The translations under genes were made by a program, and so were the position numbers. A DNA stretch of 64,000 nucleotides from Owenia fusiformis (lineage: Eukaryota > Annelida > Polychaeta > Sabellida > Oweniidae): the NCBI GenBank assembly GCA_903813345.2, contig CAIIXF020000008.1, positions 32,884,867 to 32,948,866 of the forward strand, in the 5' to 3' direction. Shown here in pieces: positions 23,988 to 47,714 of this stretch (position 1 is its first letter; each line of letters begins with the position of its first letter). The notes beneath the pieces were generated by a model. That model saw only the letters and a program-made list of their open reading frames with translations. It was not told the DNA's origin and ran no database searches.

Positions 23988-24140
23988 CTACATTTTGAGA
24001 TTATTCATCATCATTTGAACTTCATCCGCATCCTTTTGAATTCTCATCAGGAACGAGGGAGCAAGACCATCTCTTTCCAAATGATTGTTTAGACTTGCCA
24101 TGCTGTCCTTTGTGATAAACAGAACGTGTGTTTTAATATA

Positions 24141-25459
24141 TCATGTACGTTTTATGGTTTTCTCAAACATCCTTTTCCCGCCGGAGTCTTCGTCCAAAGG
24201 AGGTAATCTATCGATAGATAGATGGCGTGACCGAGGGTGATATTTGTCAGATTTCTGCGGTCTTGTAAGAGAATTCTGAGGGTGTGCAACGCGAATCACA
24301 TCTGGGAAAGTGTCTTTAAAAACTGGCTCACTCGGGCTTTTCTTTAGGGTTAGATTTTTGGCTAGGTCTGCAAACCGGTTTAATACTGAGATATCTGGCA
24401 GTTGAACGATGTCCCCGCCACTTGAGTGACTTTCACCAGCGCTACTTCCTCTTCTTTCATGCATCCTTCCACGTAAATCAAGATATTTCTTTTTCATTGT
24501 TTTGAGATTTTGTTTCATTAGCTCCTCATTTATTTTTAGCTTATCAAGTTGTCGCTGTAAGTTTGATTTTTCCGTTTTTGCTTCCTTTAACTTTTTCTTC
24601 AGATAATTTATTTTTATTTTCTGATCTTCCGTTTCAGTCTGAAGTTTATTTATGAAGCTTAGTTCTATTGTATCGATGTTTTGGTTGTTCTCAACCCTAT
24701 CAAACCCTCGGATTTCACATGCGGTTTGCTGTTCGGTTTCCAGTTCCCTTATAGTGTTATGGGCCTGGAAGAGGTCTTCCTGGAGTGCCGCTATTTTATT
24801 TTCCACATGTTCCATATTCATGTGGAGTATAACCATATGTTTTGTATCAATAGGTAGATTGTCATCATTTGGATTATGGTCCGTAACAGCCTGCATTTTT
24901 TCATTAATCTTCTTTATTTTCTCCTCGTGGTCACGCTTGTGGCTTTCGAACTGAATACGAATCCCTTCTAAGTTACTTTGTTTAATATCTAGTTCCTCTT
25001 TTAATTTTGAAATTTCTTCATCCTTTGCATCTGCAATCCAAACTTGATCTTTCGGTTCTTGGTCAAGTGAGTTCACAATTCTCGGACTTCCATTGTAATT
25101 TCTGTTAAGTTTGTCCTCCAAACTCATTTTTTCTTGAGAGAGTTCTTTAATTTTAGCTTGTAGTTCTTTTATTTTCTGATTGAGTTCATCCATTTCAACG
25201 TTGTTACCTTTAATTACTTTCAAACTTATGTTAAGTTTGTCATTGACATTCGACAACTCATTTTGAAGAGGCTTTACTTGGTTGTTTAAGCGTTTATTCT
25301 CATCATCCTTTTCATTGAGGGAACGTCTTTCTCGCATAAATTCGTCTTTTGTGACTAGATTGTTGCAGATCACTTGCTTATCATTTTGAGATAGATGTCT
25401 ATTTGTGGCAAGGTTTTTGGAGAAGAACTCTTGCATTTGTTCGCTTGGAGGCGTCGTCA
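24141..25459 (-). CDS. CARD gene 1, exon 3: coiled coil and tail
   Basis: 439 codons including TGA. It enters in phase 1 after TATTGTAG and begins VTTPPSEQMQEFFSKN. Heptad-rich from about 25390 to 24480, then Ser/basic tail. After TGA (24143-24141) the same frame stays open for 50 more codons to 23988. Confidence 0.85.
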
Positions 25460-26322
25460 CTACAATAATATGAGCAAATATCATTACATTTTGTATTTTT
25501 GTCGTTATGATTGGATAAAATATACTTAAGTATAAGTATTAGAATATTTTATCAAAAAGTATATTTACAAATAACCATACTGCTACGTACAAGATTGAAC
25601 AGGTATAGCATGTATTTCTGTTTATTATTTGCCTGAGAACATAAAATGATGGTCTCAGCTATTTACTTATTTTCATTTCATTTGGGGTCAATTCAATCAA
25701 CTTTTATCATGGCAAAGAGTAGTTTTTAGGGTTTGGACATGACTAACGACTTGATATGATCTCAATACCTTCACGTCTCCGTGTCTCTTCATCTCTGAGA
25801 AGTTTGGCAAGGTGTTTGTATGACGTATCTTCAAGGATCTCGCAGAATTTGTGAAATACTTTTGCCCTCTTCTTCAATAAGGTCAACATCCTTAAGTTTT
25901 GTTCACTTTCAGTCTTCTGAGCCTGGATATATAAGACATATGAATGAAAGGTACACATGGTTGAATGACAGTGAATGACAGTCCCCTTTAATCAAAAGCT
26001 TATTTTCATTTTATGCCCGTCTTCGGGTATTTTTGCACCTCTTGTTTGAAGCTATTTTGCCCGCATATTATAAATATAGATTTTGGGTGAATAATCATTC
26101 TTGGAAATGAACATTGACCAAGAATATGCGCTTGATATTTTTTACTTTCTAGTTAGTATAGTGTATCCTAAATATATTCCATCATACCTGAATCTGTTGA
26201 ACCATTTCATCAGTGAAGATTCCCTTAGCAAGTAGCTTCGCATAGAAACTGGGAAGTGGAACAATGTCACTTTGAAGTTCTGGCGTTAACGCAGTTATGA
26301 TCTCTCGGTGGAACTTATCCAT
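24141..26322 (-). CDS. CARD plus coiled-coil protein (paralogue 1, no DEATH domain seen)
   Basis: Coding exons on the - strand: 26322-26188, 25922-25769 and 25459-24141; phases 0, 1 and stop all agree, about 535 residues. Residues 1-97 form a CARD: MDKFHREIITALTPELQSDI, then LLAKGIFTDEMVQQIQ, then LLKKRAKVFHKFCEILEDTS and HLAKLLRDEE, with the usual helix pattern. Residues of about 115-390 are a long coiled coil rich in K, E, N and L. The Ser-rich tail has LPDISVL and SEPVF, shared with the paralogue at 32785-47714. The ATG follows a good acceptor (CCCTATCTAG), so an upstream 5' UTR exon is likely. CARDs are homotypic interaction modules of inflammatory and death signalling; the role here is inferred. 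The gene is convergent with PPP1R37. Confidence 0.82.
25769..25922 (-). CDS. CARD gene 1, exon 2: second half of CARD
   Basis: AQKTESEQNLRMLTLLKKRA, KVFHKFCEILEDTSYKHLAK, LLRDEETRRRE. Acceptor TATATCCAG, donor GAAG/GTATTG, phase 0 to 1. It carries CARD helices 4-6 with the 'LL..R..AF..F...L' pattern. Confidence 0.85.
26188..26322 (-). CDS. CARD gene 1, first coding exon: first half of CARD
   Basis: 45 codons, MDKFHREIITALTPELQSDI to DEMVQQIQ; donor CAG/GTATGA, phase 0. It has CARD helices 1-3. The paralogous exon at 47577-47714 aligns along its whole length. Confidence 0.82.
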
Positions 26323-26339
26323 AATTTGATTTTGTCCTA

Positions 26340-27709
26340 GATAGGGACAACCAAATTCAAGATTTTACTGAAAATTGTTATTTAGAGTTCGAAGATTTTA
26401 GATACTTTAAAACGCTGGTCATTTGGCTTTATGGCCATGACGCAGTTAATTTCCTTACGTAAAATATGTGGAATTTCCAAGGCCCAGGGCCCAGATCCCA
26501 GTTTTCTATATATCAATTCAGATTTAACATTGAAATTTTTCAAGAACAGGCAAACTCGAAAACCATTGTTAAAAGATTTACTTAAAAAATTGCAATTGTG
26601 AAAAACGATTAAGCTAACAAATGCACGTTACCTATACAAATAATATTAACAATAGTTAAAAGATCGTGAAAATGTAATATTTGTATTGAAATGGAGAAAG
26701 TGATTCAGCACTTCTTATTCTTAGTACAGTGACCTTTTTTCTTTCAGAAAAGTGAAGCATTCTCATGATATTAAATCAAGAGTAGTAGTATTTCTCAATC
26801 TAACCAAAAAGTTTAATACTAATGTAAATGTAATACAACAAACTAGAGAATCATAGTTTGAATTTTCACTTGCATATATTCTCTCTCTCTTTATTTTGAT
26901 GAATCGAATCGATTGTCGCTCAATATCAATTCTAAAATGTTTTATGGCAGTCGTACATGTTTAATGATCAAAGAACGAAGAAACGGTTACGATAACATGG
27001 CGATTTTTAGATTATATTTCAAACCGTTTAGCAAATTAATCATGACTTCGCAAAAAGTTAAAGATAACTTAATAAAATTGCACTGTTCACCATCTAAGAT
27101 TATTGATTATGATTATTGAAATAAATTATTTGTGATTATTAAAAATATGAGCAAGTCTGGTATCTCCACCTGAGGTAATATGTCACATCACATGATAAGA
27201 AGGCTTAGCAAATCAGAATACAATATTAACATTCTACGATTGACATCAGATGCTTATTATTAAATGACCTAGTGTAAAAAACTATAAATAGTATGAATAT
27301 CCTAGTACCTTGTGCATGACAAAATGTTGAGATTGCTTAAACTTTTGAAAAGTCGTCTTATATTCCAACCTGGTGGTCTCGGTTAAAACATTTTCGTGTA
27401 AAAGATTTTTCATTGGCCCAACTCCTTTATTCTTTCTGTGGCTATGTCTCTTAACTTTCCAGTGTCCCTTCAGGGTCGTAGTTAAGTTGGATATCATGCC
27501 ACTATCGCCATCAGTAGTTCAAAAAATAAATATTGGGTACTTTCTCTCAAAAATGTCTGCATAAACTCCGCGGCGGGCATAATTATAATTCGTCCAATGC
27601 ACAAAATGTTGTACAATATGTTGTAAATGCACCATATTACTCTTAATAAGAGAATAGATGAAGAGAGAATTGTTTTGTATTGTCTTATTTATTTAATATA
27701 CAGATTATT
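26340..27709. other. Upstream region of CARD gene 1
   Basis: No clear exon is seen. A 5' UTR exon should exist because the coding start follows an acceptor, but I cannot place it. A GC-rich patch (CTCCGCGGCGGG, about 27566) stands out in AT-rich sequence and could be promoter-proximal. 27605-27700 resembles 23480-23560. Confidence 0.35.
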
Positions 27710-29614
27710 GATTATTAACCTAATAACACAAATTAATAAAACTTTAGATCGTATCTCAAGAACAACTAATACCACTGAGCGTATCAATTGTATGTACAAT
27801 GAGTTTGTCTCAGCTATTGACAATGAAATGAGCAAAGTGTTCCAACCAGTCACAGTGTAGGCCACTGCTAAAAAACCAAGTCATTCAGAAAGCCATACTG
27901 GTGTGATGAACTACAAACACAATGGAATAAAGTGTCTGCATCTGAATCTGCCTGGCTGAAATGTAAATCCACCCAAAAACGTAACTTGAAAGAACTTTAC
28001 AAGATAGAACGACGAACCTTTGACAGAATCCATCGCAGAATAAAGTGACAATTCCAGAAACAAGAACAACAACATCTATTGGATATATACAATGAACCAA
28101 ATTCTAGGAACTTTTGGGATAAAATTGGAAAAATTGGCATCGCCTCAGACCGAAAACAGGAAGTTCCTTGGGAAATTTTAAAACCAGACAAAACTGTATC
28201 AACAGACAAACAAGAAGTCTTAAATTATTGGGCCAACTCATACAATGAATTATATTCAGAAAAAGAGGACAATGTCAACTTTGATGAGAATCACTTGAAA
28301 CAAGTCAAGGAAGAACTCTCCCATATTGAAAATGATAATGTTGACCCACTAAGTGCACCACTTAATGAGGACATAACCCTACAGGAAGTCATCAATGCAG
28401 TTCATCGAGCCAAAATTCGCAAAGCCGTGGGCATTGACTCAATCCCAGCAGAAGTATTGCAAACCCAACTTGTATAAATATGTTGTATAAAATTATCATA
28501 GAATGCTTTGATAGTGGAATTGTCCCCCAAAAGTGGATGCAGACCATAATTAATCCAATTTTCAAGGATGGCGACAACCGTGACCCACTTAACTACAGAG
28601 CAATCAGCCTAATCTCAGTGCCATGTAAAATATACTGTGATATTCTTAACAAGCGCCTTACAAAGTTCCTTGAGAGCAACAACTTATTGGTTGATGAGCA
28701 AAATGGATTTCGTGAAAAGCGCAGCTGTTTAGATCATGCCCACAGCCTCCACTCAATAGTTAATAATCGTAAGTTGGCTAAACTCGAGACATTTGTTTGT
28801 TATATCGACGCAACGAAAGCTTTTAGTGGTATAAACCGTGATTGTATGTGGCTAAAATTAAACCGCATTGGAGTCAAGGGCAAAATATTCAATGCAATTA
28901 AATCAATATATCAGGATGTATCTGGAGCCATTCGTGTCAATGGATATTTAACACCCTGGTTTACCATCAGCAAGGGTTCGAAGGAAGGCTGTCTGTTATC
29001 TCCGACAATATTTGCGATCTATGTGAATGACCTAGCCGCAGAAGTAAAACAATTGAACTTTGGGATAAATATAGACAACACAAATGTCTCAATACTTTTA
29101 TATGCTGACGATATAGCCCTCATAGCCAGCTCTGCAGAAGACCTTCAGAGAATGATTGACACTGTAAATACATGGTGCAGGAAGTGGAGAATGAAAATCA
29201 ACCAGAGAAAGTCCAAAATTGTACATTATCGCCCACCTTCAAAACCCCGTAGTAATCATCAATTCAACTGTGGCAACATGGAATTATCATATGCCAGCAC
29301 CTATAAATACCTTGGTATATGGTTAGATGATCATATCAATTACAATAAAACTGCAAAAGAAATAGCCAAGTCAGCAAATCGTGCCCTTGGAGTTATAATC
29401 TCTAAGTATAAACAGTTAGGTGGCATGGATCTCTCAGTGTATAACAAATTGTATGACACCATGGTTCAGCCTATTATTAACTATGGATGCTCAATTGTTG
29501 GGCTGTCAGAACATAGCTGTATTAACAAAGTGCAAAATAGAGCTGGAAATTTTTTTCCTGGGTGTTGGAGCAAAGACCAGCAATGAAGCAGTAAGAGGGG
29601 ATTTAGGCTGGACA
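27710..29614 (+). mobile_element. LINE family 1, copy A (RT region, 3'-interrupted)
   Basis: An APE-type non-LTR element, the same family as 30335-32146 and the - strand copy at 37000-40790. The homology to the - strand copy starts near 27710, so the endonuclease is missing. A frameshift lies near 28478. Reverse transcriptase is open from 28480, with a DPLNYRAISLISVPCKIYC stretch, FVCYIDATKAFSG (motif A), SKEGCLLSPTIFAIYVNDL (B) and LLYADDIALIA (C), then IKINQRKSKIV-like and YKYLGIWLDD. At 29614 the LINE switches to Ty3/Gypsy sequence. 27881-29614 is repeated at 30335-32068. Confidence 0.88.
28480..29586 (+). CDS. LINE reverse transcriptase, copy A
   Basis: 368 open codons covering the RT core with an intact YADD box and the thumb region (GVIISKYKQLGGMDLSVYNK, then MVQPIINYGCSIVG). 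A 1-bp shift near 29556, in the run of T's, ends this frame; the LINE continues in another frame to 29614. Mutated remnant of a mobile-element protein, not a host gene. Confidence 0.88.
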   Translation: MLYKIIIECFDSGIVPQKWMQTIINPIFKDGDNRDPLNYRAISLISVPCKIYCDILNKRLTKFLESNNLLVDEQNGFREKRSCLDHAHSLHSIVNNRKLAKLETFVCYIDATKAFSGINRDCMWLKLNRIGVKGKIFNAIKSIYQDVSGAIRVNGYLTPWFTISKGSKEGCLLSPTIFAIYVNDLAAEVKQLNFGINIDNTNVSILLYADDIALIASSAEDLQRMIDTVNTWCRKWRMKINQRKSKIVHYRPPSKPRSNHQFNCGNMELSYASTYKYLGIWLDDHINYNKTAKEIAKSANRALGVIISKYKQLGGMDLSVYNKLYDTMVQPIINYGCSIVGLSEHSCINKVQNRAGNFFPGCWSKDQQ

Positions 29615-30334
29615 AGATTGAACAGAAAAAACTGTCTAAAACATCCAAAGCTCTACTTCGGAATTGGAACCGTCTAAATATTATCAAAAATGTTCTAGTT
29701 AGAAAAATCAAGGACAACAATGGAAATGAAACTTATCAAATCATAGTCCCACAATGTATTCGTGAAGATGTATTGAAAGCTAACCATGATATGAGCGGAC
29801 ATCAAGGATCTGACAGAACTGAAATACTTGTAACAAAGTCTTTCTTCTGGCCAGGAATGTATACAGATATACGAAACTATGTACGAGATTGCTCAAGATG
29901 TTTGTATTCCAAGAAACCAGTCAGAAATGTAATTACGCCATTGGGAAGTTTAACAGCCAAAAGCCCACTTGAGTTATTATTTCTAGACTTTACACTTTTG
30001 GAGAAATCTTCCGATGGAATCGAAAATGTTCTTATAATAACTGACGCTTTCACAAAATACACTCTTGCAATTCCTACAAAGAATCAAAAAGCGGATACAG
30101 TCGCAAAAGTCCTAGTCAACAATTGGTTCTATAATTTTGGAATACCAATGAGAATCCACTCAGACCAGGGACGAAATTTTGAAAGTGAAATTATTGCAAG
30201 CTTATGCCAGCTCTATGGAATCAAAAAATCTAGAACAACTCCATACCATCCTTCGGGAAATGGGCAATGTGAACGTTTCAATAGATCGCTCCACTCGCTA
30301 CTGAGAACACTTTCCGAAGAGAAAAAGAAAAAAT
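29615..30334 (+). mobile_element. Ty3/Gypsy LTR-retrotransposon fragment (integrase part of pol)
   Basis: About 720 bp whose protein frame shows the integrase H/C zinc-binding region (H..H then CSRCLYSKKP) and the catalytic-core signature, with DFT, HSDQGRNF and YHPSGNGQCERFNRSLH phrases. It is an isolated piece: no LTRs, gag or reverse transcriptase are present, so the element is broken and incomplete. It lies exactly between two near-identical LINE segments, which points to a young arrival. Confidence 0.88.
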
Positions 30335-32146: not shown

Positions 32147-32784
32147 CTGATTTATAATTGGTATCACGTTGAGCTTCCCCAAAGTCATAATCACATGGAT
32201 AACTCCATTAGTGTGGTGTCTCATCATTGTCTTGATATTCATCAATGTCTTCATTGCAATTGTCGTCATGATTAGCCATTCCATTTTTTCTAACCCGAAG
32301 ATTCATCATGCATGCATAATAGAAATGTAGTACGATCAGAGCGCATCGTCGTCGTCGTCGTCATCACCATTCCCATTCACTGTAAGTAAGATTGCTTTAA
32401 AAATAAGGTCCTAAAAGATTTATGGTCCAATTTTCGATTGCTTTTGATAGATACAAATGTTGCAATTTGTTTTTGCTCTTTTAACTTCCGTGAAACACCA
32501 TTTGTGCTACAAACATTTTATTGAAGCAACAACACAAATTCTTGCAATGAGACCGATTCGTTTTTTTTAGTACCAATTGGCACAACACTGAATTAAACAT
32601 TTAGCTTTCTTTGTGGTATCAATATGTGTGAATATACGACTTTTGGAACGATCAGTTCTCTAGTCAAATAATTTACCGAAACTCTTAGTGTGTGGGAGCC
32701 AAAGACATCAATAATGATTTCATGATTTATGATAGATTTCAAGTGTTTTTGCTGCCGATGCATGAAACACATTTAGCCCACCCT
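32147..32784. other. Spacer between the LINE and CARD gene 2
   Basis: A (CGT)n-like run (GTCGTCGTCGTCGTC) lies at about 32346-32362. On the - strand near 32276-32205 there is a short acidic frame, MANHDDNCNEDIDEYQDNDE, following a TTAG acceptor-like site. Its phase does not join the DEATH exon, so I leave it uncalled. Confidence 0.35.
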
Positions 32785-33077
32785 TTAGATGAAAGTCTCG
32801 TCTCTACCTTTATAGTCTTCCACAGCTTCTCCCAAAGCAACTAGTCCTATAGCTTTAAGTGCACGTGCCAGTATATGTTTTCCGTTTTGGTCTTTGGAAA
32901 GCCTCTGATTCCAAGTTGTTAAAACGTTCAACACCCATACACCAGCATTATGTTGGTTACTTAAAATGATTGTTTCAATAGTCGTTTTACTAATACTTAG
33001 TTGATTTCCTAGAGCATGGCACTTGTCGGGTCCTACTTTTTCAGCAATTTGTTGTAGATATTGACCATCCAAAACAC
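32785..33077 (-). CDS. CARD gene 2, exon 4: DEATH domain
   Basis: 97 codons including stop, entering in phase 1 after CCTGTTTCAG as GVLDGQYLQQIAEKVGPDKC. The six-helix DEATH pattern is complete, with the conserved helix-5 phrase NVLTTWNQRL. It ends EDYKGRDETFI. An AAAG/GTAGAG donor-like site just before the end leaves a small chance of an alternative last exon. Confidence 0.88.
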
Positions 33078-36000
33078 CTGAAACAGGTATGAAAACAATA
33101 TCAATAAAAATGCAATCACAAACAATAACTACAATAAATAACAATAACTCGAAAGTTCCCATTTTAAGATAATGTTACATTTTGAACCCATTCTTCTTTT
33201 GATTTCTCGTCAGTTCTATAGCAAAACGTAGCTCTTACCAGTGGATTTGCTATATTGCCTTTTCTCGTGTGTGTGAGTATCTTTGCCAAGAGACACAATG
33301 GGTGTTTTAAGGGGTGTCCTGGAAGCTGTCCGAGAACAGATCGGTCGTCTTGTTCTGGATGAATTTATTTTTTGCAATTGGCTAAAAGATGCTGGAGCTT
33401 GGAAAGTAGGCTCACTTTTATTACTCCTCGATAGAGTATAACTTTTGGCTTGGTATTCTCTATCCGATATATCTGGAAGTGTAATGCTATTCCCATTGCC
33501 CGAGTCACCGTATCTGGCACTACTTGGTCTCCTCTCATTGATTTGTCTTTGTAAATCATGATGTGCTTTTTTCATAGATTCGTAGTTTTTTCGTATCTGA
33601 ATCTCATTCACTTTAAGCGTCTTGACTTCTTTCTGTAGTTTCTTTTTTTTCATCTTTGCTTCTCCCAATTCTTTCTTTAAATTATCAATTTCTTTTTTCT
33701 TTTCTTCTGCTTGATTTTCAAAATTATCCAAAAAGGTTTTTGCAGTATGATACAAGTTTTTTTCAATCTTATCAAATCCGAGTATTTGAGCGACCAATCT
33801 CTGTTCAGTTTGTAATTGACTTATCATGTTTAGTTCACTTAAGAGCTTTTGCTGAAGATATTCTATGTTCTCCTCAATGAATGTTATATTTAGGTGTAAA
33901 ATAGACATTTGCTTATTTTCCGTTGATATATGATAATCATTTGGATTGCATTTCGCAACGGCCTGTAATTTGACATTAATCGTTTCGATTTTCTTTTCAA
34001 ATTGCCTCGCGTCGGTTTGATAGTTTTCCAGCTTTTCTGTCAATTTTGAAATTTGGTCAACTTTTTTATCTGTAATGGCATTTATTTCTTTTACTTCTTG
34101 TTCAGAGGATTCCCCTGGGCGTTCATTGTTATGATCGTTGAGGTTGAACTTCGATTTCATCTCCTCTTTAAGTTTTTTGATTTCATCATCACGAATAACT
34201 ATTTCATCCCGTAGTTCCTTTATTTCGAGTATGCCATTGTTATTTACTATTTCATTTCTATCGAGGTCCTCACTGAGACTCGTCACCTTCTTTTGAAGTG
34301 TATTTACTTGGTAGTTCAGTTGAGCAATCTTGTCACCTTTACGGGCAATTATCTCAGATGCATAGTTCTCTTTCCTTTTGATGCTTTTGATAATTTCCTT
34401 GTCTTCCCGAGACAGGGGTTCCTCGTTGATGGCTTTGGATAAGATTCGTAGCATTTGGTTTTGTAGATTTGGAGACGCCACCACTGTAAGATTCAAAACA
34501 ACATTAAATTTATTTCAATGTCTTCTTATTCAATGATATTTCGATGGGCCCACTCAGGGAAATGAAATGCCAACGTTTGGCGGAGATCAAATACATTGTA
34601 CAGTGCGTATCACAAAAACGCAACAGATTGTTATCTCGGAAAAGCATAAAACCAGTGATAACAGCATTGATTTCATTCAATGTACCTCTTTCCAATGGTA
34701 TATCATTCGTTGATATTGGGTCATGGTGGGGCGAGTAATCATTTCTTTTGCAAAGTGGGCCAAAATTAGCTTGGGACCAATTTATAAACGTCGCGAAATT
34801 CAGAGTACGGGGCCCAAGGCATAAGGGTAATTGGAAGAAGGTGTGGCAGGTGTGACATACACAGTAAAGTGTTTTATTCATACTCTTACAAGAATACAGC
34901 CTATACCCCTCCAAATTGCCACCACTTCTTGACACATAAAGATGCGCTCATCTCTCCATGTCATTCATGGTTCAGTCCTGAGTCATGTATGGGTTACAGG
35001 CTCAGCGGGGAAAAGGTGCGCGCGGGACGCGCGCTCCCCCTAAAATCCGGCATAGACATTAGATAGACTAATATCAAAGAAAAATGTATTCAAGCAGAGA
35101 CATTTGAAAATGAAAAAACTGATAACATGTCAACAATAGAGCGTTTGAACTTTGAAGGTGTAAATTCAAAAACTGCTTCAATATTAAAATGCCTCTGATG
35201 CAAAATAATGCACTGCTTGGAAACGACATTGGTTTTCAATTAGAAAGCCCATGGAAACGTTGATCTTTGAAATCGCACAGTCTGATTTTCTGATGAAATA
35301 TAATTGTTTTATTTCTCGGACGCTATAGATGACCAATTTCACTTTGGTAAAACAATTAAATTCACATTTCAATAGCTTTTTAATCAAAATTGGTGTCATG
35401 ATTAAATTGTGTTACGTCTTTTTGAATCATGAAAATGGACACATGTAACATCGTCTGATATGTCACACGTTATCATTTGTATGTTTGGGATGTTCAATTT
35501 AATTAAGATTTCAGTTAAAACGATTTTAACCGAAGGTTGATGAAAATAATTTTACCAAAAACAATAATAGAATAGAATGTTGGCGTTATCTAAGAAAAAT
35601 AAAACTTTTAATTCATTGCAGATCCAGTTTTCAGTCAAATTTGCAATAAACGTTTCAAGAACTTATCTTGATCAATACGCATTCTGCGTACACGTTCCTC
35701 CGACTTGTCTAGATAGTACATGTACCACCAGTTATGTAAGCTTATTATCCGCAATTTTTTGGTACGGTACAATGATTTAAAAATATTAAAAAATGATCAG
35801 ATCGCAGCAAATGACATTCAAATTCTCGAAATTCCCGGGGACCTCATGTTTGTCGGTCTCCAGCCTCCTTTGTTCATCCATCGACCTCGAATTCAAAAAT
35901 CAAGGCGCACCCCCTAACCTGAAATCCTGGATCCGCCCCTGCTTCCGACGGCACTTAGCCCTTGCACTGATTTTTGCAATATCTGAAACTTGGTCCAGAG

Positions 36001-39000
36001 CCGATTTTGACACACTGTGCAAATGGAAGGATTTCGCCAACCGTGACCATATGTGAATGATTGACATATCATTGCAAAGAGGGGGATGTGGCTTCATGGT
36101 AAATTAAATAAAATTGATGAAGTCATCACTGGTTTTGTGATTTTACGAGATAACTGCTTGTTGCGTTTTTTGATACGCCTTGTATTACAAAATCTAACAT
36201 TGAATATACAGTACTTTGACATTAATTCAAATACTTTAAAATAAAAATTTGGCCAACCCTATCTTTTCTATCTTTGAATATCCTGTAAAGTTTAATACTT
36301 GAGATAGAAACGGACCTTCGTTTCTCTGCAATTCTGCATCTTTGAGAAGTTTTGCGAGATCCCCGTGTGCAGTTTCTTCGAGTACCTCGTTAAATTTGTG
36401 AAAAGCTCCTGAAGCTCTTGTTTTTAGTAAGGTCAACATCTTGAGGTTTTGTGTTGTACCTGTCTTTTCAGCCTGAAGAAAACCGTGGCATGGTTGTGAT
36501 ATAAAGTCAAAATAAATAGATAAATAGAAGAGCCCATACAGCTCCGCTTTTTAAACAATATTCAAAGTGTTGGATATGTACAATATCCACCTTTTTAACG
36601 TAGGTCGGTTTGTGTACAAATGGTACAACGGATTAACAGTGTTTCCACAACTTTTTGGTGACTTTTTCCAAATAAATGTTGACATTCACAATTATCATAC
36701 TCGCCATTGCCAGGATCTACATGCTTTTGGATATAAAACCAAAGTAGGATTTTTTCTACAAAGATTCAAGGTCAATGGATATCGAACAGTATTGAAAGGC
36801 CAATAAGGGAAAGCTCTTCTTTGAATATTTTTAAGATAAGATACAAAAAGTATTTGATAGATAAAATTTCTTTAGATTAGAATCTACATGTATATCACCA
36901 AATATATCATTCAGGGTCTTAAAGGCATTTAATTACAATTAATAGTTTGGTTTAACAATTGTTTATTTCTGTGTCACAGGTTTACTAAAATATTACAAGT
37001 AAAATACATGTGTTAAAAAAGCCAACAGCCGACATCGGCTTACGAGACACCATATAAATATACAAAGATTAAATCAATAGAAAAATATAGCATCGGTATG
37101 TCGAATAATATCACAGAGGGTGTAAAGTAAGTTTGCAGAGTGTGAACAATTCAGACAAAATGACTAGATTAAAATAACATACAATATAAACATGTGATTT
37201 CAAAATGCAATAAATGAGAATACAGTAATTATGACTTTGGTTGATAATATTGTACATATTTAATATCACAAACGTTCCAGGTTAAATAAACGTTTTGAGA
37301 ACATTTTGTAAAGAGTAGCAGCAAGGCAGCTTTGAATGTTCTTTGCATGTAGTAATGTGATCATAACTAAGGTTGGATTGACACTTGAAGTATTTAAATA
37401 AGGTACTTTAACTTTGGCTTCCTGATACAACATGTCTCTTAATTCTGTATAATCTTCAACTTCATTTGAGTCACACAGTTTACACTTCCTTTCCAATAAA
37501 GGTGTGTTATTATACCTTTGTGTCTCAACATTAAGTTGAATGGACCCAGTTCTAAAGCTAGCTAGAGTTTTCCTATGATGTCTTGGCATGTAAATGTTAT
37601 TATAATGTTCAGTTACTACTCCGTACTTGAACTGTCTATATGTCCTCAGTTTATTACCATTGACTAGGTTATGTTGATCATTCCAAATATTTGTAAGAAA
37701 TGGATCAGTTTGTTGAAAATAATCACTCATTTTTTTCATGAAGGGTTTACATGGAGTTTGTGTCCCTAAATGTTGTTCAAGGCCTGCTAGTTGTATTATG
37801 TGCTGTGTTCTGGAATCCCAGCTTGAGCGTCTTTTTAGGGACCATTTGTAGATCTTATAGTTCAATCTGTTGGGGTTCATGTTTCTGAGTCTAATAAGGT
37901 GGCGTACACATTCAATTTTCTGTTTGTCCTTTGCTTGTGTCCAACCTAAATCCCCTCTTACTGCTTCATTGCTGGTCTTTGCTCCAACTCCCAGGAACAA
38001 TTTTCCAGCTCTATTTTGCACTTTGTTAATACAGCTATGTTCTGATAGCCCAACAATTGAGCATCCATAGTTAATGATAGGCTGAACCATGGTGTCATAC
38101 AATTTGTTATACACTGAGAGATCCATGCCACCTAACTGTTTATACTAAGAGATTATAACTCCAAGGGCACGGTTTGCTGACTTAGCTATTTCTTTTGCAG
38201 TTTTATTGTAATTGATATGTTCATCTAGCCATATACCAAGGTATTTATAGGTGCTGGCATATGATAATTCCATGTTGCCACAGTTGAATTGATGATTACT
38301 ACGGGGTTTCGAAGGTGGGCGATAATGTACAATTTTGGACTTTCTCTGGTTGATTTTCATTCTCCACTTCCTGCACCATGTATTTACAGTGAATCATTCT
38401 CTGAAGGTCTTCTGCAGAGCTGGCTATGAGGGCTATATCGTCAGCATATAAAAGTATTGAGACATTAGTGTTGTCTATATTGATCCCACAGTTCAATTGT
38501 TTTACTTATGCGGCTAGGTCATTCACATAGATCGCAAATATTGTCGGAGATAACAGACAGCCTTCCTTCGAACCCTTGCTGATGGTAAACCAGGGTGTTA
38601 AATATCCATTGACACGAATGGCTCCAGATACATCCTGATATAATGACTTAATTGCATTGAATATTTTGCCCTTGACTCCAATGCGGTTTAATTTTAGCCA
38701 CATACAATCACGGATCAGACCACTAAAAGGTTTCGTTGCGTCGATATAACAAACAAATGTCTCAAGTTTAGCCAACTTACGATTATTAACTATTGAATGG
38801 AGACTGTGGGCATGATCTAAACAGCTGCGCTTTTCACGAAATCCATTTTGTTCATCAACCAATAAGTTGTTGCTCTCAAGGAACTTTGTAAGGCGCTTGT
38901 TAAGAATATCACAGTATATTTTACATGGCACTGAGATAAGGCTGATTGCTCAGTAGTTAAGTGGGTCACGGTTGTCGCCATCCTTGAAAATTGGATTAAT

Positions 39001-42000
39001 TATGGTCTGCATCCACTTTTGGGGGACAATTCCACTATCAAAGTATTCTATGATAATTCTATACAACATATTCATACAAGTTGGGTTTTTCAATACTTCT
39101 GCTGGGATTGAGTCAATGCCTACTGGCCTACGGCTTTGCGAATTTTGGCTCGATGAACTGCATTAATGACTTCCTGTAGGGTTATGTCCTCATTAAGTGG
39201 TGCACTTAGTGGGTCAACATTATCATTTTCAATATGGGAGAGTTCTTCCTTGACTTGTTTCAAGTGATTGTAATCAAAGTTGACATTGTCCTCTTTTTCT
39301 GAATATAATTCATTGTACGAGTTGGCCCAATAATTTAAGACTTCTTGTTTGTCTGCTGATACAGTTTTGTCTGGTTTTAAAATTTCCCAAGGAACTTCCT
39401 GTTTTCGGTCTGAGGCGATGCCAATTTTTCCAATTTTATCCCAAAAGTTCCTAGAATTTGGTTCATTGTATAAATCCAATAGATGTTGTTGTTTTTGTTT
39501 CTGGAATTGTCGCTCTATTCTACGATGGATTCTGTCAAAGTTTGTCGTTCTATCTTGTAGTTCTTTCAAGTTACGTTTTTGGGTGGATTTACATTTCAGC
39601 CAGGCAGATTCAGATGCAGACACTTTATTCCATTGTGTTTGTAGTTCATCACACCAGTATGGCTTTCTGAATGACTTGGGTTTTTAGCATTTGCCTTCAC
39701 TGTGACTGGTTGGAACACTTTGCTCATTTCATTGTCAATAGCTGAGACAAACTCATTGTACATACAATTGATACGCTCGGTGGTATTAGTTGTTCTTGTG
39801 ATACGAACTAAAGCTTTATTAATTTGTGTTATTAGGTTATTATCTAACATAAAGTTATCGGGCACCTTGTTTATCCTATATTATTTGTGTTTTAAGTTAT
39901 CTTCAGTTGGGCATTGTTCTTCATTTGGTGAAAACAATTCAAAGTCCAAAGGAAGAATTAAATCACAGCTCAGGATACAATGGTCTGGTAGTGCAGCTGG
40001 GGCAGGTAGATTAAACTTTGATATTAGATCTGTTGGCCTCCAAATCGAGAAATTTTCAAAACCATTTAATTGCTCATGTGGGGTACATATGTAGTCAACT
40101 ATGGAACGTCCTTTATGAGATATGCAGGTGAAGTCATTCATTCCTCGTCTGCCATTCAATGTACAAATACTAGAATCAACAAGGAAGTTTAAAAAGTGTT
40201 CCCCAAATGAGTTTAAAGTAAAATCAACAGTTGAGCGTTGGGGGATAGTGTCAACACCTTCAACATAGTCACTATTGTCACCAATGCGTGCATTAAAATC
40301 TCCCATAATGCATAGAGTACCCTCATTTTGAAACTCATAGACTCCTTGAAGTAAGTTGTTAAGGAAAGCTTCTGGATCACTGATTCTTGTACATCTAGAT
40401 ATAGGGGGAAGATAACAGGCGCATATCACCACACTGAAGTTGGAGTGGATTGCTTTTAGTTTTATCCACATAGTATCTGGCATTGATCTATCAAGAACTT
40501 CATATTTAAAGTCTTTTAGTAGATCAGATTTTATCAGGACTCCAACACCTCGTGATCCCCGGCGATTATGGCCGATCAAAGTGTATCCATCAATATTAAG
40601 AAACTGCTCATCTCGGAGGAATGTTTCATTTAGGCATAAGATATCAAAGTTCATATTCTTTATAATGGTCTTCCTGAAAGCGGAGTTTTCATTTTGGGTA
40701 ATTGAGAATCCATTTACATTCCAGGTGCCCATGGAGAGCCGATGTCGGCCGTCCCCCTATTGATCATTTCCAGCAGTATTTGTCCTAAGATTATCACTAT
40801 GTTTATGTTTCTTTATTTCCTCCGTTTTATTGGAGAGCAAAACAATTTATACATGCATATCACATTACAAACATATATTACAGAAGAGTAAAGGGTTATT
40901 AATTTTTACATATTTACAAGTTAAATGACTCTAAATACATTTTATCATAAGATTACAATTCAAGCGTACCTATTTGAAATACATATTTGTATTGTAAAAT
41001 GTATTTGCACATTCGATAACGAACATATCATAAATGGTGTCATTGGCTACATCAAAATCTATTCTGCTACCCAGAACAGTCTGTAAGAAAATATCATCAT
41101 CAAAATTGAAAAGCATAACACTATCTTGAACTGGTAAGATATCAATGAGTCGCTCAAAAAATGCGTCTCTCTCAGATAAAAATTGATTGCAATGCAGAAA
41201 ATGAAATATTATACAATTACACGATGAGTTGCATTTCTTACATGTGAATGTCTTATATGAAGGCATTGCAGAAAGCTGCACCAGGTTGGCTAGTTGCCAT
41301 AGATATGATGGGTATCGTTTTCCAACGACCCAGGCGAAGCTTGGTTCCAATTTACAGTGAATGTTCCTAAAAATATGCAGATTATCATTGGCTTCCATTC
41401 TTGAAAGCCACTTATTTTCCTCTCTGTTGAAAATATGGAAATGCGATGCTTTTTTAAACAAAACTGTATTCATAATTGAGCCGGTAAGCAAGAAGGTTTC
41501 TGCAACACTCCGTGCAATATCACAGTCGATGCTCATGACGTCTTTAGCAAAACCAAAGTGATTGTTTCCCGGGTTTGTGAGTAGGGACGAGAATCTAAAC
41601 AGGAATATGTATTTTGTAACTTCATGAGTGCATCGACATAATCTTGACAAAAAGTTTAATTTCAATTTCTCAATGAAGCTCGATACAGATATTGCACCAA
41701 GAGTGGCCAGAACAACGTCTGATGCCGTTCTTGCTTCAAAACCTTGAACTACTTTGAATATATGTTTTTGAGCAGTGTTCAGTATATCTTCATCATGCGG
41801 TGACAAGTTGTACCATAGCTCACAACCATATAATGCAGTGGGTAATATAATAGAATACCATAGTCTAATGAACACAAGTGGATTAGCGCCAAATTTATGT
41901 AAACGCAAGGTGTTTTTGATCGAATAAAATTTTGAGTACATTTTCTTTTTTGAGTTGTTAACCAGATTTTCGGTTTCAAAGTTAGTAGTGATAAGGTTAC

Positions 42001-45000
42001 CTAAATAGTTTGTGCTTTGAGTTTCAGGCACTATATCAGTCCCTAGTAGCCACTGACGACTACCTCTGCTTCGAAAAAACTGTTGCTTTGTTTCATTAAA
42101 TGTCAAAATTGAGCTTTTAGTGTTATCACCAGCGTGGTAAACCATACGCCATTTTGAACTGTAGCGAAATACAATGTCTAACAGAACTTGCAAATTATGC
42201 GCAGAGGAAGCTAGAAGAGTAGTATCGTCTGCCACCAAAATACACGGAATATCATACGAACCTATCTTAAGACCTGAATGCGCTTCCTTAAGCTCAGTTA
42301 TGAGTGCGTCAATATAGATCAAAAAATAAATCGAACTCGTCACTCTTCCCTGTCCAACTCCCTGATAAATACTAAATTCCCGGGAAAATGAGCCATTGTA
42401 TAATACACGTGCAGTGGTATTAGTATAACTTTCTACGATTAGCCTCCATGTTACTCCATTGATACCGAGTGAGAATATTTTCTGAAATAACCCTTTCCTC
42501 CACAATAAATCAAAACATTTGCGATTGTCAAGAAATGCTGAAAATACCATAGAGTCACGTTCTTTGTAGTGAAGTATGATCTCTTTGAGAGCGAAGAGAG
42601 CGAACTGACTACTACTTCCCTCTTGATAGGCAAATTGTAAAGCGTTGGGGCAGCCTTTGATTTTTAGTTTAGGGGTCATTCGGATGCTGAGAATTCTTTC
42701 CCATATTTTGTACAGACAGGAGGACAAGGTTTGAGTGTTCTAAGAGGTAAGATTTTTGGAAATTGCTGTGAAAATAAAGTGCGTCCAAGGGACTCGGGAG
42801 TTTTTTATTTTTCCGTCCAACATTATTTTTTGGGGTCCATCTAATGTAAGGACGGCGTTAAATAAAACGTAGCTATGCTATCATATTTCATTTAACTGTC
42901 ACTCCCCCTGCTCATATCCAACAACTATTAATGTGCTCTTATTTATACTTATTTTAATAATTAATTTTCGCTATTATTATATTATATTTATGTTTAGTCA
43001 AGCAGTATATACACTTATTTTAGGTGTCCACTGTAAATAATTTGTATTTTGCTTTATTGTTATATCAAGGAAATAAGAAATAAATAACAAAAAAATACTT
43101 AACCGATCTTAAAGGCCCCATATAAAGTTTAAACCACTTTAGCTTATATTGTAGTCTTACCCAATGTTATCAAAGTGTGATATGTGAAACTTTTTTTTTA
43201 AATTTCAAAAAGTGGTTTTTGATAGACTTTTTGTTCCAAAATTTGTGAATTTATTTAAACCCAACTTTTAGAGGTCACTCATATTTTTTTCAAAAAGTTT
43301 TTGGTACCTTAGTGACATCACTAATGTTTCAAAATATTTTTGATATGTTAAAACATTGAAGTGGCCCATTAAATATGGCATTTTATTATTGAAATAGAGT
43401 GTACTTTGTTCAACCTTTGCATTGGGGTTAAAAAGATAATCTTTTTTGAAATGCATTAAGAAATATTTGATAATTAAGAAATTTCAACTTTTTTTGAAAA
43501 ATGGCGGGAAATTTGAATATTTGAGAAATGAAATGCTCACAACTTTTTTTTCAAAATTTTTTTTTTGTTAAAAAATCTCTAAAATCACTTTTAAGTCCTG
43601 ACAAATAGTAAATGAATGATAAAAAAATATTTTCAAACTTTAGACGGGGACTTTAAGTGTATCTTAAAAACTGGCCTGACCAAGTCTTGTATAAAAATAC
43701 ATAAAACATTATTGAGCTTCTATTTTTTATATCAAAAGTTTCTACTACAATCTTCGTGCTCAACGTATTTAGTATACTCTAGTTAGGGGTGGTGCATCGA
43801 TGTCACTTCAACTCCTCATGGAAACCTGATCGATCTACTTGATACATTATACGAGTTTTATCGTCATTAAATCTCCCCATACTTTAAAGTGCTTAAATAG
43901 ATGTATTTATATACATGTATTACTGATTTGTGTTCAGTTATGAGTCAGATTTGCAAGTCATGGTCAGTGAGATGAGATTTAGTTCTTAAAATGGAAGGAA
44001 GTGAAGAATTACTTACTATTAAGAAGTACTACAAATAACAATTGCAAAGGTATTATTAAGTAGTTTTTGAAAAAACGGTTTTCTCTCAAATTCGTGAAAT
44101 ACTTTTAAAAAATCATAAGATAGTCAAAAGTGACTCAATTTTTATGAAATAAACCATGTTGGAAAGGCAATTCAATCTTCAATGAGTATCTACCATACAG
44201 AGCAATAATAATTAATTTACATTTTCTACAGTATTAGAATCGAGGTAACTATCAATATTTTATGAAATTCACTTTTATTGGCACAAACCTCCGACTATCA
44301 TAACTTTGCCTTCTACTCCAAATCACCTTTACTTTTACGCCAAAAAGTGTCATTTATTCACATTTCTCGCAATGTGTTCACGTTTGCCGGCGCATTTACC
44401 ATGGATTTCCTGGTTGCCGAATGGTCGCAACAGCGCATTGAGGACGCCATCCCGATCTGACGGGGGCCTTACCACTTTGTTACTAGAATAATTTTTTGGG
44501 CCCTTTAAGAGCTTAAAGTGTCTGTTCGATGCTCATGGGGTCAAAATACAGTTTATACACGTTCTAAATGAAATAAATACCACTAACATGTCAAACCAGG
44601 TACCGTTCTTGTAGCCTAAATATTTTTATAAATGTGAAATTTGATGTTCAAAATCGGGAAACACAATGTCAAATGCCAAACATGACATCAATAACAGAAC
44701 GGGTTTTGAATATGTTGTTGGAGTTCATAATCTCCTAACGTGCATTTAAAGTGTTAGTGTAATTGATTGCAACTGCATTCAATGAAGTGAGGAATTGATT
44801 GACTACTTTGGAGCCACGTTTTTTCCTCTGATAAACCAAAAATATAATACCTAAATTAGAGCTTCAAACCCAGCGGTGCGTTTTTACATATCATCCAGAA
44901 TTATTTTCTGGCTTATGTAACGACCCAGGGTTAATAATAATTGTAGTCTTTATTAAATGGCAATTTAATTGTCAAAGTCGACATATACCTTTTAAAGCAC

Positions 45001-47714
45001 TACCAGTAATCATACTCATGTATAATTTGGTTCAACAGTGATATAATATACTAATTATTATTATGTAATATAATGAACTCCTTTTTAAGGTACACTAATT
45101 ATTTTATACGAACTAATCTAATAAAATGGCGTTCAGCCTGGAAAAGTTAACCAGTGGTCAAGCACAGTGACAATAAATAAAGCACAAGAAGTTACAACAT
45201 GCGTTCAATAATATATCTCACTGTGCTGATTTAATTCAACTATGGCGTCTACGTTTTGAAGCCATGTGACTGATACCCTGCTGACTGTATTACAGCGCGA
45301 ATGTTCAAATATCCAAATATCCAAAATTGCAAAAATCCAAATTCCAAGATGTGTTAATTGATTTCAAGTTATGTTATGTAATATCCCACAGAAAACTGTC
45401 GAAGTGCTGAAAGTTGGTGTTGCTGAGAGGCAAGAGCGAAACTGAGGGCCGAAGGGATTGAATTCCTTTATATACCCCACTGACCATCAGTGCCAGCTTT
45501 GGGTATAGGGCCTCAGAACAAGCTAATTGGACAATCCAACAAAACCATAAATCACTGCCACACTTCCTGAGTCAAAGGGATGGGATATGAAACATTACAT
45601 AAATTTGATTGGACAATAAGGTCAGCAGCAGAGTACCAGGCATACAGTCTGCGATAACCGGACAACTCATCCCCTAGACAACTCATCCCTGGACAACTCA
45701 TCCCCTAGACAACTCATCCCCTGGACAAGTCATCTCCTAGACAAGTCATTCCCTAGACAAGTCATCCCCTAGACAAGTCATCCCCTGGACAACTCATCCC
45801 CTAGACAACTCATCCCCTGGACAACTCATCCCCTGGACGACTAATCTTTTGGCATGTTTGAGTATAGTAATTTAATATCATATCACCAATTCATATTTGA
45901 TATTCAAATGATTTTTTAAATGTTTTGGTTGTGAATTAGGGCAGCTTTAAGTTTCAAAAAACATATATAACATGAACACTGTTACTCCACTTGATTATGC
46001 TGTTGATCCCTTTGGGTAACAAAATGTTGGAGCCTCGAAGGTATATAAGTGTTTTTTTCTTACTTCACGAGTTGCAGGCAGAATTCCCATGACATTCTAT
46101 GTCTCGCTTTTGTTACTTTCTGTAGACAGAACTTCTAAAACGGTTAAGATCTGCACTTCTAACCCGTTCCGTTTATGTAACAATAGTGAGGTATTAAATC
46201 GACGATTCTGTTGTTTTCTTTTATTTGTTTGCAAACATGTACATTTTCTTAAACATATGATACCGACAAACGTTTGTGATAAAAATGATGTTTGAATTTT
46301 GCCTGCAACGCCGGAATGGGGTAAAAATCAAAATCGATCATTTCTTTGAGGTTCTGACATTTTGTTGCGATCCGTTTCGGTAACCAGCATGATCTAGTGG
46401 AGTACCAGTGATAAACAAAAACTTTCTGGAGGGGAAAATTGCTAAAAACAAAGAGATAATCAACCAATTAATCCGTGATTTGTTTTGTAAATATTTATTT
46501 TTCATTTCGATGTGATATTAACAAGAGACATATAAAACATTATATGTCTCTCTATTAGCATTGCTTGTAGAAGTTCCTTTGATGTTATAATATGTTTGTT
46601 GTTCATAGCTCAAATATTCTTAAATTATTTTTTCACAGCAGAAAGAGATGAGAGTTTTAATGACATCGTTTGGCTGTTTATTTGTGTCAGTAAAGTGAAA
46701 AATAATATTTTCAATGATCTAAGATTGGGGATGAGATGTCTATGGGATGAGTTATCTAGGGGATGAGATGTCCAGGGATGAGTTGTCTAGGGGATGAGTT
46801 GTCAGTAAGCCCAGTCTGCTATAGCAGACAAAGACACTGCCAAAGATGGACCATCAGTCAAGAACTTGTAAATTGATGTTGTAAATTAGCCATGACGAAT
46901 TGTGCAACTGTGATAGGTCAAAAATAAAGAAATAATAATGCAGTCTGTACAGAGGGTTGTCACAATATAGGATAATTGTTTAACTTACTAAATCTCAAAT
47001 GATACAGGCTGAGGGTAAGGTAAATATGATTGGTCCAGAGACATAATAGAGTAGTGACCAATATGAAGACCGTCAGCCATAATGCAAATGAGAACTACAG
47101 TATACTGAAGTGATATAATAAAGTAATATGGAAAACCAGGTGTGATGTACAAAGTGTTTTAGAATACTGTATGAAAAATAAAAATGCAAATAAAAGGGCC
47201 AAAGGTCCTTACACCTGTAACCAAAAGGCATTGAACCATGAAGTGATTTCGGTAAGCGTTACTCCTTTCTGGCCAATCAGAACACAATATATAACATAAA
47301 CAATTTTAACTTGGCACCTTAGTTGCATAACGCATAACTAGTTATGTTAGTGACGTCATGTTTTTTCCCGGAAAATCTTATTTTGCCACCAATGAACAGA
47401 CGGAATGAGTTGAGAGTCTGTTTTGAATACTATTTTTACTTACCAATATCGGTTTCATCTATTGTAGTGAGAAAAAATAAACAGAAATTACCGAATTAGC
47501 ACTTTAAAATGGCTCGATTTATCTATATATCAAACTTTTCATTCTAATAATCAACCATTTTATTTTAATACAATACCTGAATCTCTCTAATCATGTCAGC
47601 TGTGAATATTTGCTTGTCTACGAGACTCTCATAGAACGTGGCCCCTGGGACAATATTATCCCGTAAGATTCCCGTCATTGACGTAATAACTTCTTGGTGG
47701 AGTTTTTCCATCAT
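32785..47714 (-). CDS. CARD, coiled-coil, DEATH-domain adaptor-like protein (paralogue 2)
   Basis: Coding exons on the - strand: 47714-47577, 36472-36316, 34483-33239 and 33077-32785, 1,833 bp, 610 residues; phases 0, 1, 1 all agree. The N-terminal CARD (about 1-98) is MMEKLHQEVITSMTGILRDN plus LLKTRASGAFHKFNEVLEET. A coiled coil spans about 120-370, then a Ser-rich linker with ITLPDIS and SEPTF. The C-terminal DEATH domain has YLQQIAEKVGPDKCHALGNQ, LSISKTTIETI, VLNVLTTWNQRL and ILARALKAIGLVALGEAVED. The start follows an acceptor, so a 5' UTR exon lies upstream. CARD and DEATH are interaction modules; bridging a CARD partner to a DEATH partner, as CRADD does, is an inference. I know no vertebrate protein with this domain order. 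Confidence 0.85.
33239..34483 (-). CDS. CARD gene 2, exon 3: coiled coil and linker
   Basis: Phase 1 in after ATCTTACAG, phase 1 out at ACTG/GTAAGA. It begins VVASPNLQNQMLRILSKAIN, aligning with exon 3 of gene 1, and ends KRQYSKST. Coiled-coil heptads span most of it. The tail shares LPDIS and SEP[TV]F with gene 1. Confidence 0.88.
34484..36315. other. CARD gene 2 intron 2 with an inverted repeat pair
   Basis: About 34600-34810 (+) matches the reverse complement of about 35975-36195, for example CGCAACAGATTGTTATCTCG against the inverted CGCAACAAGCAGTTATCTCG. These are two copies of one dispersed repeat facing each other. A GC-rich hairpin (GCGCGC GGGA CGCGCGC) lies at about 35018-35035, and a 'cctggatccgcc' repeat remnant at about 35925. 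Confidence 0.6.
36316..36472 (-). CDS. CARD gene 2, exon 2: second half of CARD
   Basis: AEKTGTTQNLKMLTLLKTRA, SGAFHKFNEVLEETAHGDLA, KLLKDAELQRNE; phase 0 to 1. Acceptor TTTTCTTCAG; donor GAAG/GTCCGT is weak. The exon matches exon 2 of gene 1 in place and phase. Confidence 0.85.
37266..39623 (-). CDS. LINE family 1 reverse-transcriptase region, copy C, broken
   Basis: Reading down the - strand, it has the lead region (NYWANSYNELYSEKEDNVNF), the RT fingers and palm (SKEGCLLSPTIFAIYVNDL, LLYADDIALIA), the thumb (YKYLGIWLDEHINY) and a C-terminal Cys motif. At least four frame breaks are visible (near 39120, 38930, 38500 and 38390). A decayed remnant. Confidence 0.85.
39881..40732 (-). CDS. LINE family 1 APE-type endonuclease, copy C
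   Basis: 283 codons from MGTWNVNGFSITQNENSAF. APE landmarks: ILCLNETFL, GVGVLIKSD, MGDFNARIGDNSDYVEG and LPDHCILSCDL. The first domain of the ORF2-type protein. It is the only endonuclease seen for this family here. Confidence 0.88.
   Translation of the reverse strand: MGTWNVNGFSITQNENSAFRKTIIKNMNFDILCLNETFLRDEQFLNIDGYTLIGHNRRGSRGVGVLIKSDLLKDFKYEVLDRSMPDTMWIKLKAIHSNFSVVICACYLPPISRCTRISDPEAFLNNLLQGVYEFQNEGTLCIMGDFNARIGDNSDYVEGVDTIPQRSTVDFTLNSFGEHFLNFLVDSSICTLNGRRGMNDFTCISHKGRSIVDYICTPHEQLNGFENFSIWRPTDLISKFNLPAPAALPDHCILSCDLILPLDFELFSPNEEQCPTEDNLKHK
40820..42780 (-). mobile_element. LINE family 2, 5'-truncated, in gene 2 intron 1
   Basis: It lies immediately upstream of copy C on the same strand. 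The 5' end is cut near 42780 within the RT fingers. The frame 42727-40970 is open for 585 codons, then about 150 bp of 3' UTR. Unrelated in sequence to family 1. Confidence 0.82.
40970..42727 (-). CDS. LINE family 2 reverse transcriptase with variant motifs
   Basis: RT motifs in order: VFSAFLDNRKCFDLLWRKGL (A), FSIYQGVGQGRVTSSIYFLI (B) and CILVADDTTLLASS (C, VADD in place of YADD). Then a thumb region (STNYLGNLITTNFE, LPTALYGCELWYN) and a C-terminal CKKCNSSCN...HFLHC metal-binding motif. 585 codons without a stop suggest a fairly young insertion. A TAG lies just upstream of the first Met. Confidence 0.85.
   Translation of the reverse strand: MSSCLYKIWERILSIRMTPKLKIKGCPNALQFAYQEGSSSQFALFALKEIILHYKERDSMVFSAFLDNRKCFDLLWRKGLFQKIFSLGINGVTWRLIVESYTNTTARVLYNGSFSREFSIYQGVGQGRVTSSIYFLIYIDALITELKEAHSGLKIGSYDIPCILVADDTTLLASSAHNLQVLLDIVFRYSSKWRMVYHAGDNTKSSILTFNETKQQFFRSRGSRQWLLGTDIVPETQSTNYLGNLITTNFETENLVNNSKKKMYSKFYSIKNTLRLHKFGANPLVFIRLWYSIILPTALYGCELWYNLSPHDEDILNTAQKHIFKVVQGFEARTASDVVLATLGAISVSSFIEKLKLNFLSRLCRCTHEVTKYIFLFRFSSLLTNPGNNHFGFAKDVMSIDCDIARSVAETFLLTGSIMNTVLFKKASHFHIFNREENKWLSRMEANDNLHIFRNIHCKLEPSFAWVVGKRYPSYLWQLANLVQLSAMPSYKTFTCKKCNSSCNCIIFHFLHCNQFLSERDAFFERLIDILPVQDSVMLFNFDDDIFLQTVLGSRIDFDVANDTIYDMFVIECANTFYNTNMYFK
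43108..43657. mobile_element. Foldback element (CTTAAAGGCCCC ... GGGGACTTTAAG)
   Basis: The left end CTTAAAGGCCCCATATAAAG mirrors CTTTAGACGGGGACTTTAAG. About 550 bp, with AT-rich, T-run-rich interior and a lone AAAATGGCGGGAAA motif. Lies in gene 2 intron 1. Confidence 0.65.
43658..45640. other. Intron sequence, nothing recognised
   Basis: No supportable gene. Short frames near 44278-44491 have no domain. Slightly GC-richer at 44380-44470. Confidence 0.35.
45644..46818. mobile_element. Foldback element whose arms are 17-bp tandem arrays
   Basis: The left arm (45660-45842) is about ten units of GACAACTCATCCCCTAG; the right arm (46725-46803) is the same motif inverted. The ends CAGTCTG[CG] (45645) and CAGTCTGCT (46812) lie just outside. 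A second, unrelated foldback (45978-46409) is nested between the arms. Confidence 0.75.
45978..46409. mobile_element. Degenerate foldback related to 6677-7212
   Basis: It begins ACTGTTACTCCACTTGATTA and ends CTAGTGGAGTACCAGT. Inside are GGGTAACAAAATGTTGGAGC and ACATTTTGTTGCGATCCG, shared in diverged form with 6677-7212. Older than that copy. Confidence 0.75.
46819..47576. other. Intron sequence next to CARD gene 2 first exon
   Basis: Nothing coding seen. Ends at the donor of the first coding exon. Confidence 0.4.
47577..47714 (-). CDS. CARD gene 2, first coding exon: first half of CARD
   Basis: 46 codons, MMEKLHQEVITSMTGILRDN to TADMIREIQ, donor CAG/GTATTG, phase 0. An acceptor (TACCATTTAG) precedes it as in gene 1. 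Aligns with 26188-26322. The next exon is 11.1 kb away, so the link rests on phase and on the paralogue's structure. Confidence 0.8.

Follow-up and report, generated by a model that had tools for sequence, protein, structure and literature searches.

The window analyzed here, a stretch of 64,000 nucleotides from the annelid Owenia fusiformis, carries two related genes on its minus strand, which we call gene A and gene B. Gene A (24141-26322) has three exons that splice into 535 amino acids with no internal stop. The first two (26188..26322 and 25769..25922) encode the halves of a CARD, and the third (24141..25459) encodes a homologue of the coiled coil and tail of gene B, retains the heptad pattern, and ends in a stop codon. 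The model of gene B (32785-47714) consists of four open exons with AG and GT splice sites, which give 610 amino acids with no internal stop. Exon 1 (47577..47714), recognized from its splice sites and its homology to the first exons of gene A and of the third copy described below, encodes the first half of the CARD and ends in phase 0. Exon 2 (36316..36472) encodes the second half and ends in phase 1 at a donor, AAG/GTCCGT, that appears weak by eye. Exon 3 (33239..34483), in phase 1 at both ends, encodes a coiled coil, as judged by predicted long helices and heptads, followed by a predicted disordered tail. Finally, exon 4 (32785..33077) opens at a phase-1 acceptor, ends in a stop, and encodes a DEATH domain that is identified by Pfam, a six-helix model, and fold matches. 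An AATAAA on the same strand (32517..32522) lies 263 nt past the end of the gene B stop. Gene B has one phase-1 intron more than gene A.

Genes A and B are real paralogues with common exon phases. They align by BLASTP over 484 columns with 38% identity (E 8e-81), well past chance. A sequence-only reading of this DNA had pointed to three further shared features, all of which are present in the spliced models. Both genes have introns of phase 0 and then phase 1 at the same positions; an acceptor AG lies directly ahead of the ATG, at 14 nt in gene A and 11 nt in gene B; and the tail motif LPDIS...SEP[VT]F is found in both. The same reading described A and B as a local pair, a description that is incomplete. 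When the host genome was searched in six frames with gene B, 60 matches at E up to 1 were returned, and besides A and B themselves they led to a third gene, copy C (C8:21670821-21673933), on the same contig 11.2 Mb from gene A. Its exons (2822-2956, 3945-4098, and 4406-5934 of locus L039) splice into 605 amino acids with the three-exon layout seen in A and B, and its tail carries a variant of the motif, LPDVS...STPTF. Because this third paralogue exists and is closer to A than B is, genes A and B are not an isolated or simple tandem pair. Identity is 59% between A and C (532 codon-aligned positions), 44% between B and C (509 positions), and 39% between A and B (499 positions), making B the most divergent of the three copies. 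Changes between gene B and its paralogues are most frequent at third codon positions, and dN and dS (NG86) are 0.43 and 1.28 for B and C, 0.25 and 1.06 for A and C, and 0.50 and 1.37 for A and B, ratios that are rough because a dS above 1 is near saturation.

The surroundings of the two genes hold other features. Between A and B, a pair of nearly identical reverse-transcriptase segments (28049-29586 and 30503-32040), one frame of which differs by one residue by eye, flanks an integrase frame (29587-30357). Retroelement-like frames, also recognized by eye, lie on the minus strand within the 11-kb first intron of gene B (37266-42739). On the plus strand, the region 14500-17189 holds leucine-rich-repeat-like frames and, after them, a long serine-rich frame that contains repeats of 60 bases; these frames are reminiscent of PPP1R37. 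Caspase-type catalytic exons (C8:33040329-33042162) are located about 91 kb to the right of the window, on the same strand as A and B. Scanning the window with Rfam and for tRNA genes gave no match.

With a Pfam cut-off of 23.9 bits, the CARD scores 30.8 bits in A and 27.8 bits in C, both above the cut-off, and 23.3 bits in B, which is 0.6 bits under it. At E up to 0.001, CARD is matched at least 38 times by exons of the host genome, and the A, B, and C exons over which the CARD is split score too weakly to be among them. When a profile of the three CARDs was compared with solved structures, the leading matches were RAIDD (3e-4) and caspase-9 (4e-4), with APAF1 among the chance-level matches. 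Although the structure library contains CARD9 chains, no chain of CARD9, CARD10, CARD11, or CARD14 was among the 27 matches at E up to 10. We reject orthology of these CARDs to that of CARD9 on the basis of the profile, to which RAIDD and caspase-9 are nearer and CARD9 gave no match. Two other genes of the host genome, L057 and L064, have a phase-0 intron at this very column of the CARD alignment, and the CARD exon of L064 is followed 660 nt further on by a caspase catalytic match. Because of the RAIDD and caspase-9 matches and the intron held in common with this CARD-caspase gene, the CARD of A, B, and C looks allied with those of initiator caspases. Elsewhere in the genome, CARDs occur in other settings. 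A single frame of L006 (1456-2679; C8:31.002 Mb) joins a CARD, a likely helical stretch, and a Ras-family GTPase (Pfam CARD 55.8 bits, Ras 122.5 bits), an unusual CARD combination, and a frame of L056 (1989-3191; C1:26.825 Mb) has tandem CARDs, detected by Pfam as two stretches.

Exon 3 places 414 codons between the CARD and the DEATH domain of gene B, about 290 residues of which are predicted to form the coiled coil. A structure model of the exon has helices at exon residues 25-117, 124-176, 187-234, and 241-316, followed by a disordered tail; built from three sequences, it is of low confidence (mean pLDDT 65). The periodicity of the helical part is clear in all three genes: for B, A, and C alike, not one of 500 shuffles attained the aliphatic heptad power of the real sequence. 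The tails are unremarkable in this respect, since their heptad power was attained by 351 (B), 273 (A), and 149 (C) of 500 shuffles.

The DEATH exon is what sets gene B apart from gene A. The sequence-only reading had proposed a profile search of the 610-residue protein against CARD and DEATH models, and its outcome was mixed. Searched alone, the DEATH exon scores 25.4 bits against Pfam Death (PF00531), above the gathering cut-off of 22.6 bits, but the CARD of B falls just short, as noted above, and a scan of the entire 610-amino-acid protein did not return Death at E up to 1. Other evidence agrees with the result for the isolated exon. A model based on 15 sequences folds into six helices with a mean pLDDT of 86.9. 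In a Foldseek search with this model, the first 34 matches were all DEATH-domain structures and the highest TM score among the best 50 of 93 matches, 0.80, was to PIDD (chain 2of5_H); no match had an E below 0.001. A profile of the DEATH family that includes gene B matched PIDD first in the PDB (1.5e-10) and then CRADD (5e-7). In addition, the invariant core positions of the domain are retained in gene B. The earlier claim that only B has a DEATH domain stands for the window, where no other frame of at least 30 amino acids exceeded the inclusion threshold; the match of gene B itself is there by construction, because B is in the profile. For copy C, no DEATH exon was found above the same threshold among frames of at least 30 amino acids in L039 and L040, which extend about 4 kb past the gene.

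This exon has many relatives. At least 67 DEATH exon matches are present in the host genome at E up to 0.001, a list for which the gene B exon is too weak, and the six-frame search with gene B found 45 relatives of it. Each of the 15 relatives that were read from these 45 has a phase-1 AG no more than 25 nt from where its alignment starts, including L044 and L053, where the automatic choice was an AG within the domain and an AG just ahead of it, likewise in phase 1, was identified by eye. An alignment of gene B with 14 of the 15 (L050 was omitted as nearly identical to L047) has Pfam Death at E up to 0.01 in 15 of 15 rows. Furthermore, a CARD-DEATH gene in this genome (L043) consists of two exons that are joined, by eye, in phase 1. 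The gene B exon looks like an ordinary phase-1 module of an expanded DEATH family. Near two of the relatives, frames of L046 (393-827) and L047 (359-829) have a common LIEDF...LIPE stretch, and the former matched nothing in Pfam at E up to 0.01.

An argument can be made that the DEATH exon is a separate gene that begins in intron 3 of gene B, which would make the product of B, like that of A, a protein with CARD and coiled coil and a length of about 520 residues. Going upstream through the intron, the DEATH frame meets no stop before an in-frame ATG that is accompanied by a hydrophobic run. Exon 3, for its part, is open for a few codons past its donor, giving a 520-amino-acid protein without DEATH. 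Yet the hydrophobic run overlaps the pyrimidine tract of the acceptor. A phase-1 AG at a similar place in all 15 of the relatives read indicates that the domain usually starts at a splice acceptor, and this ordinary phase-1 character argues against a gene that starts within the intron. The donor of the nearest recognized exon upstream, at a distance of 161 nt, also leaves the phase that the DEATH exon requires. We regard a separate gene as unlikely, and splicing of exon 3 to the DEATH exon as the more plausible arrangement. It is very improbable, moreover, that gene B is a decaying copy with no working protein. Its divergence from A and C, the retroelement frames in its long first intron, and its exon-2 donor, weak by eye, would fit such a history. 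However, its four exons are intact and free of stops at 39-44% identity to the paralogues, third codon positions have changed most, and both the heptad pattern and the DEATH core have been kept.

If gene B is spliced in this way, its carboxy terminus differs from that of copy C, which ends in a putative zinc-binding region, CxxC...YHKG...GKRWSCC...GCCKGLH. Compared with solved structures, this region has a sole match at E up to 10, CHORD protein-1 (E 0.005). Against Pfam CHORD it scores 15.1 bits, and because this misses the cut-off of 24.6 bits we name it CHORD-like only. A genome search with the zinc end at E up to 5 yielded C itself and a single other match, a remnant at gene A (24022..24159, minus strand). 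The remnant, which overlaps the gene A stop and then runs past it, has 50% identity to the zinc end of C (E 1.2e-8), is also evident in DNA alignments, and contains two stops. It therefore seems that the zinc end has been lost from gene A. From these comparisons, a CHORD-like zinc domain most likely stood at the end of the ancestral protein of the three-gene family, a state that C has kept.

The boundary of intron 3 in gene B carries a related signal. In a DNA alignment of the three 3' ends, the third donor of gene B, G/GTAAGAG, aligns with DNA that in C codes for GGTAAGAG (Gly-Lys-Arg), and the start of the intron (33174..33238, minus strand) comprises this donor and about 60 nt aligned with the zinc-coding DNA of C. 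Left unanchored, the alignment of the intron with C is weak, with 37 of 1000 random stretches of the window scoring equally high, a number that falls to 26 if the end of the exon is added; the random draws could include the gene A remnant and gene B itself. An anchored test, run after the unanchored one and omitting the 7 donor bases, was more discriminating. Of 400 dinucleotide shuffles, a single one attained the colinear score past these bases, as did 2 of 1199 GT starts sampled from 3376. Because the anchored score is so rarely reached, we read the start of intron 3, with moderate confidence, as what is left of a zinc end.

Since the gene B donor falls on coding DNA of C, the intron begins with zinc-like DNA, and the DEATH family is of phase 1, gene B most likely swapped ends. 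The history could also have run in the opposite direction, from an ancestor with CARD, coiled coil, and DEATH, followed by loss of DEATH from A and C and by later read-through into an intron that gave C its zinc end. The phase-1 join of L043 agrees with this scenario, as does the position of B as the most divergent copy. We nevertheless find it quite unlikely. The zinc end resembles an existing domain, for which a chance origin from an intron is improbable; the remnant in A means that this end is not exclusive to C; and neither the window nor L039 and L040 hold another DEATH frame above the threshold. Our preferred interpretation, which we consider probable, is that gene B is a CARD, coiled-coil, DEATH adaptor that descended from a zinc-ended ancestor and exchanged that end for a DEATH domain by way of an exon-derived donor. 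Under this interpretation the zinc end of gene B would have decayed, the coding GGTAAGAG would have turned into a splice donor, and the new donor could then have fed into a phase-1 DEATH exon from the expanded host family.

The resulting protein is likely a coiled-coil-clustered adaptor that links DEATH partners to CARD caspases, and gene B may in this capacity serve as an innate-immune module. The coiled coil would cluster the protein, the DEATH domain would receive input from DEATH-domain partners, and the CARD, which resembles those of RAIDD and caspase-9, would nucleate the recruitment of CARD caspases. Genes A and C, where the searches detected no DEATH exon, may take part in these clusters or titrate them without DEATH input. 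Splicing might add a layer of control. Because both boundaries of exon 3 are in phase 1, its omission from the transcript would yield a 195-amino-acid CARD-DEATH protein like CRADD. We hold it to be a long shot that gene B is a splice-controlled switch among the 610-amino-acid clustering adaptor, a 520-amino-acid CARD-coiled-coil form that stops in intron 3, and this exon-skipped form, with A and C as DEATH-less partners.

The order CARD, coiled coil, DEATH, as the sequence-only reading proposed, is the best reading of gene B and differs from the layouts of familiar adaptors. To our knowledge, CRADD has no coiled coil and CARD9, CARD10, CARD11, and CARD14 have no DEATH domain. CRADD/RAIDD comprises about 200 amino acids in all, with no long region between its CARD and DEATH domains. 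Gene B is similar in having a CARD and then a DEATH domain in one chain, through a predicted splice and with a CARD just under the cut-off, and RAIDD is both the top solved structure for the CARD profile and the second protein, after PIDD, for the DEATH profile. Gene B differs in the coiled coil of about 290 residues between the domains and in its intron-split CARD. PIDD is built from leucine-rich repeats and an autoproteolytic part in addition to its DEATH domain. Its DEATH domain is the nearest to that of gene B by profile and has the highest TM score among the best 50 of 93 matches, but gene B has a CARD and a coiled coil, and Pfam did not find leucine-rich repeats or the autoproteolytic part in it. 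CARD9, CARD10, CARD11, and CARD14 act together with BCL10 and MALT1. Genome searches for MALT1_Ig and the PIDD autoprocessing domain gave no match and their controls were also blank, so they are silent on absence.

The amino-terminal half of gene B is closer in layout to the CARD-CC proteins, that is, CARD9, CARD10, CARD11, CARD14, and invertebrate CARD-CC, which have an N-terminal CARD followed by a coiled coil of about 300 residues (PMC6624267). In CARD9 and CARD11, according to the same source, the CARD is kept in check by the coiled coil before activation, and the coiled coil helps to form filament templates (PMC6624267); it is by analogy with this coiled coil that we propose clustering for gene B. 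However, the CARD sequence of A, B, and C is not of the CARD9/11 type by profile, and gene B ends in a DEATH domain and C in a CHORD-like domain. In amphioxus, domain shuffling has produced new death-fold combinations, for example, death-caspase, death-NACHT, and DED-NACHT (PMC2575513). Gene B resembles these hybrids as a novel combination in an invertebrate, but CARD-coiled coil-DEATH is not among the combinations named in the passages of that report considered here (PMC2575513). The combination is likewise absent from the titles and abstract openings that searches of open-licence PubMed Central brought up, which for the larger result sets were the best matches. If the splice is confirmed, gene B would be a readable case of adaptor rewiring, in which a stretch coding for Gly-Lys-Arg became a donor and a zinc end was exchanged for DEATH, with the older state preserved in one paralogue and surviving as a broken remnant in a second. 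The predicted protein unites in a single chain the CARD-coiled coil layout and the CARD-DEATH layout, both known from adaptors, and its clustering is directly testable.
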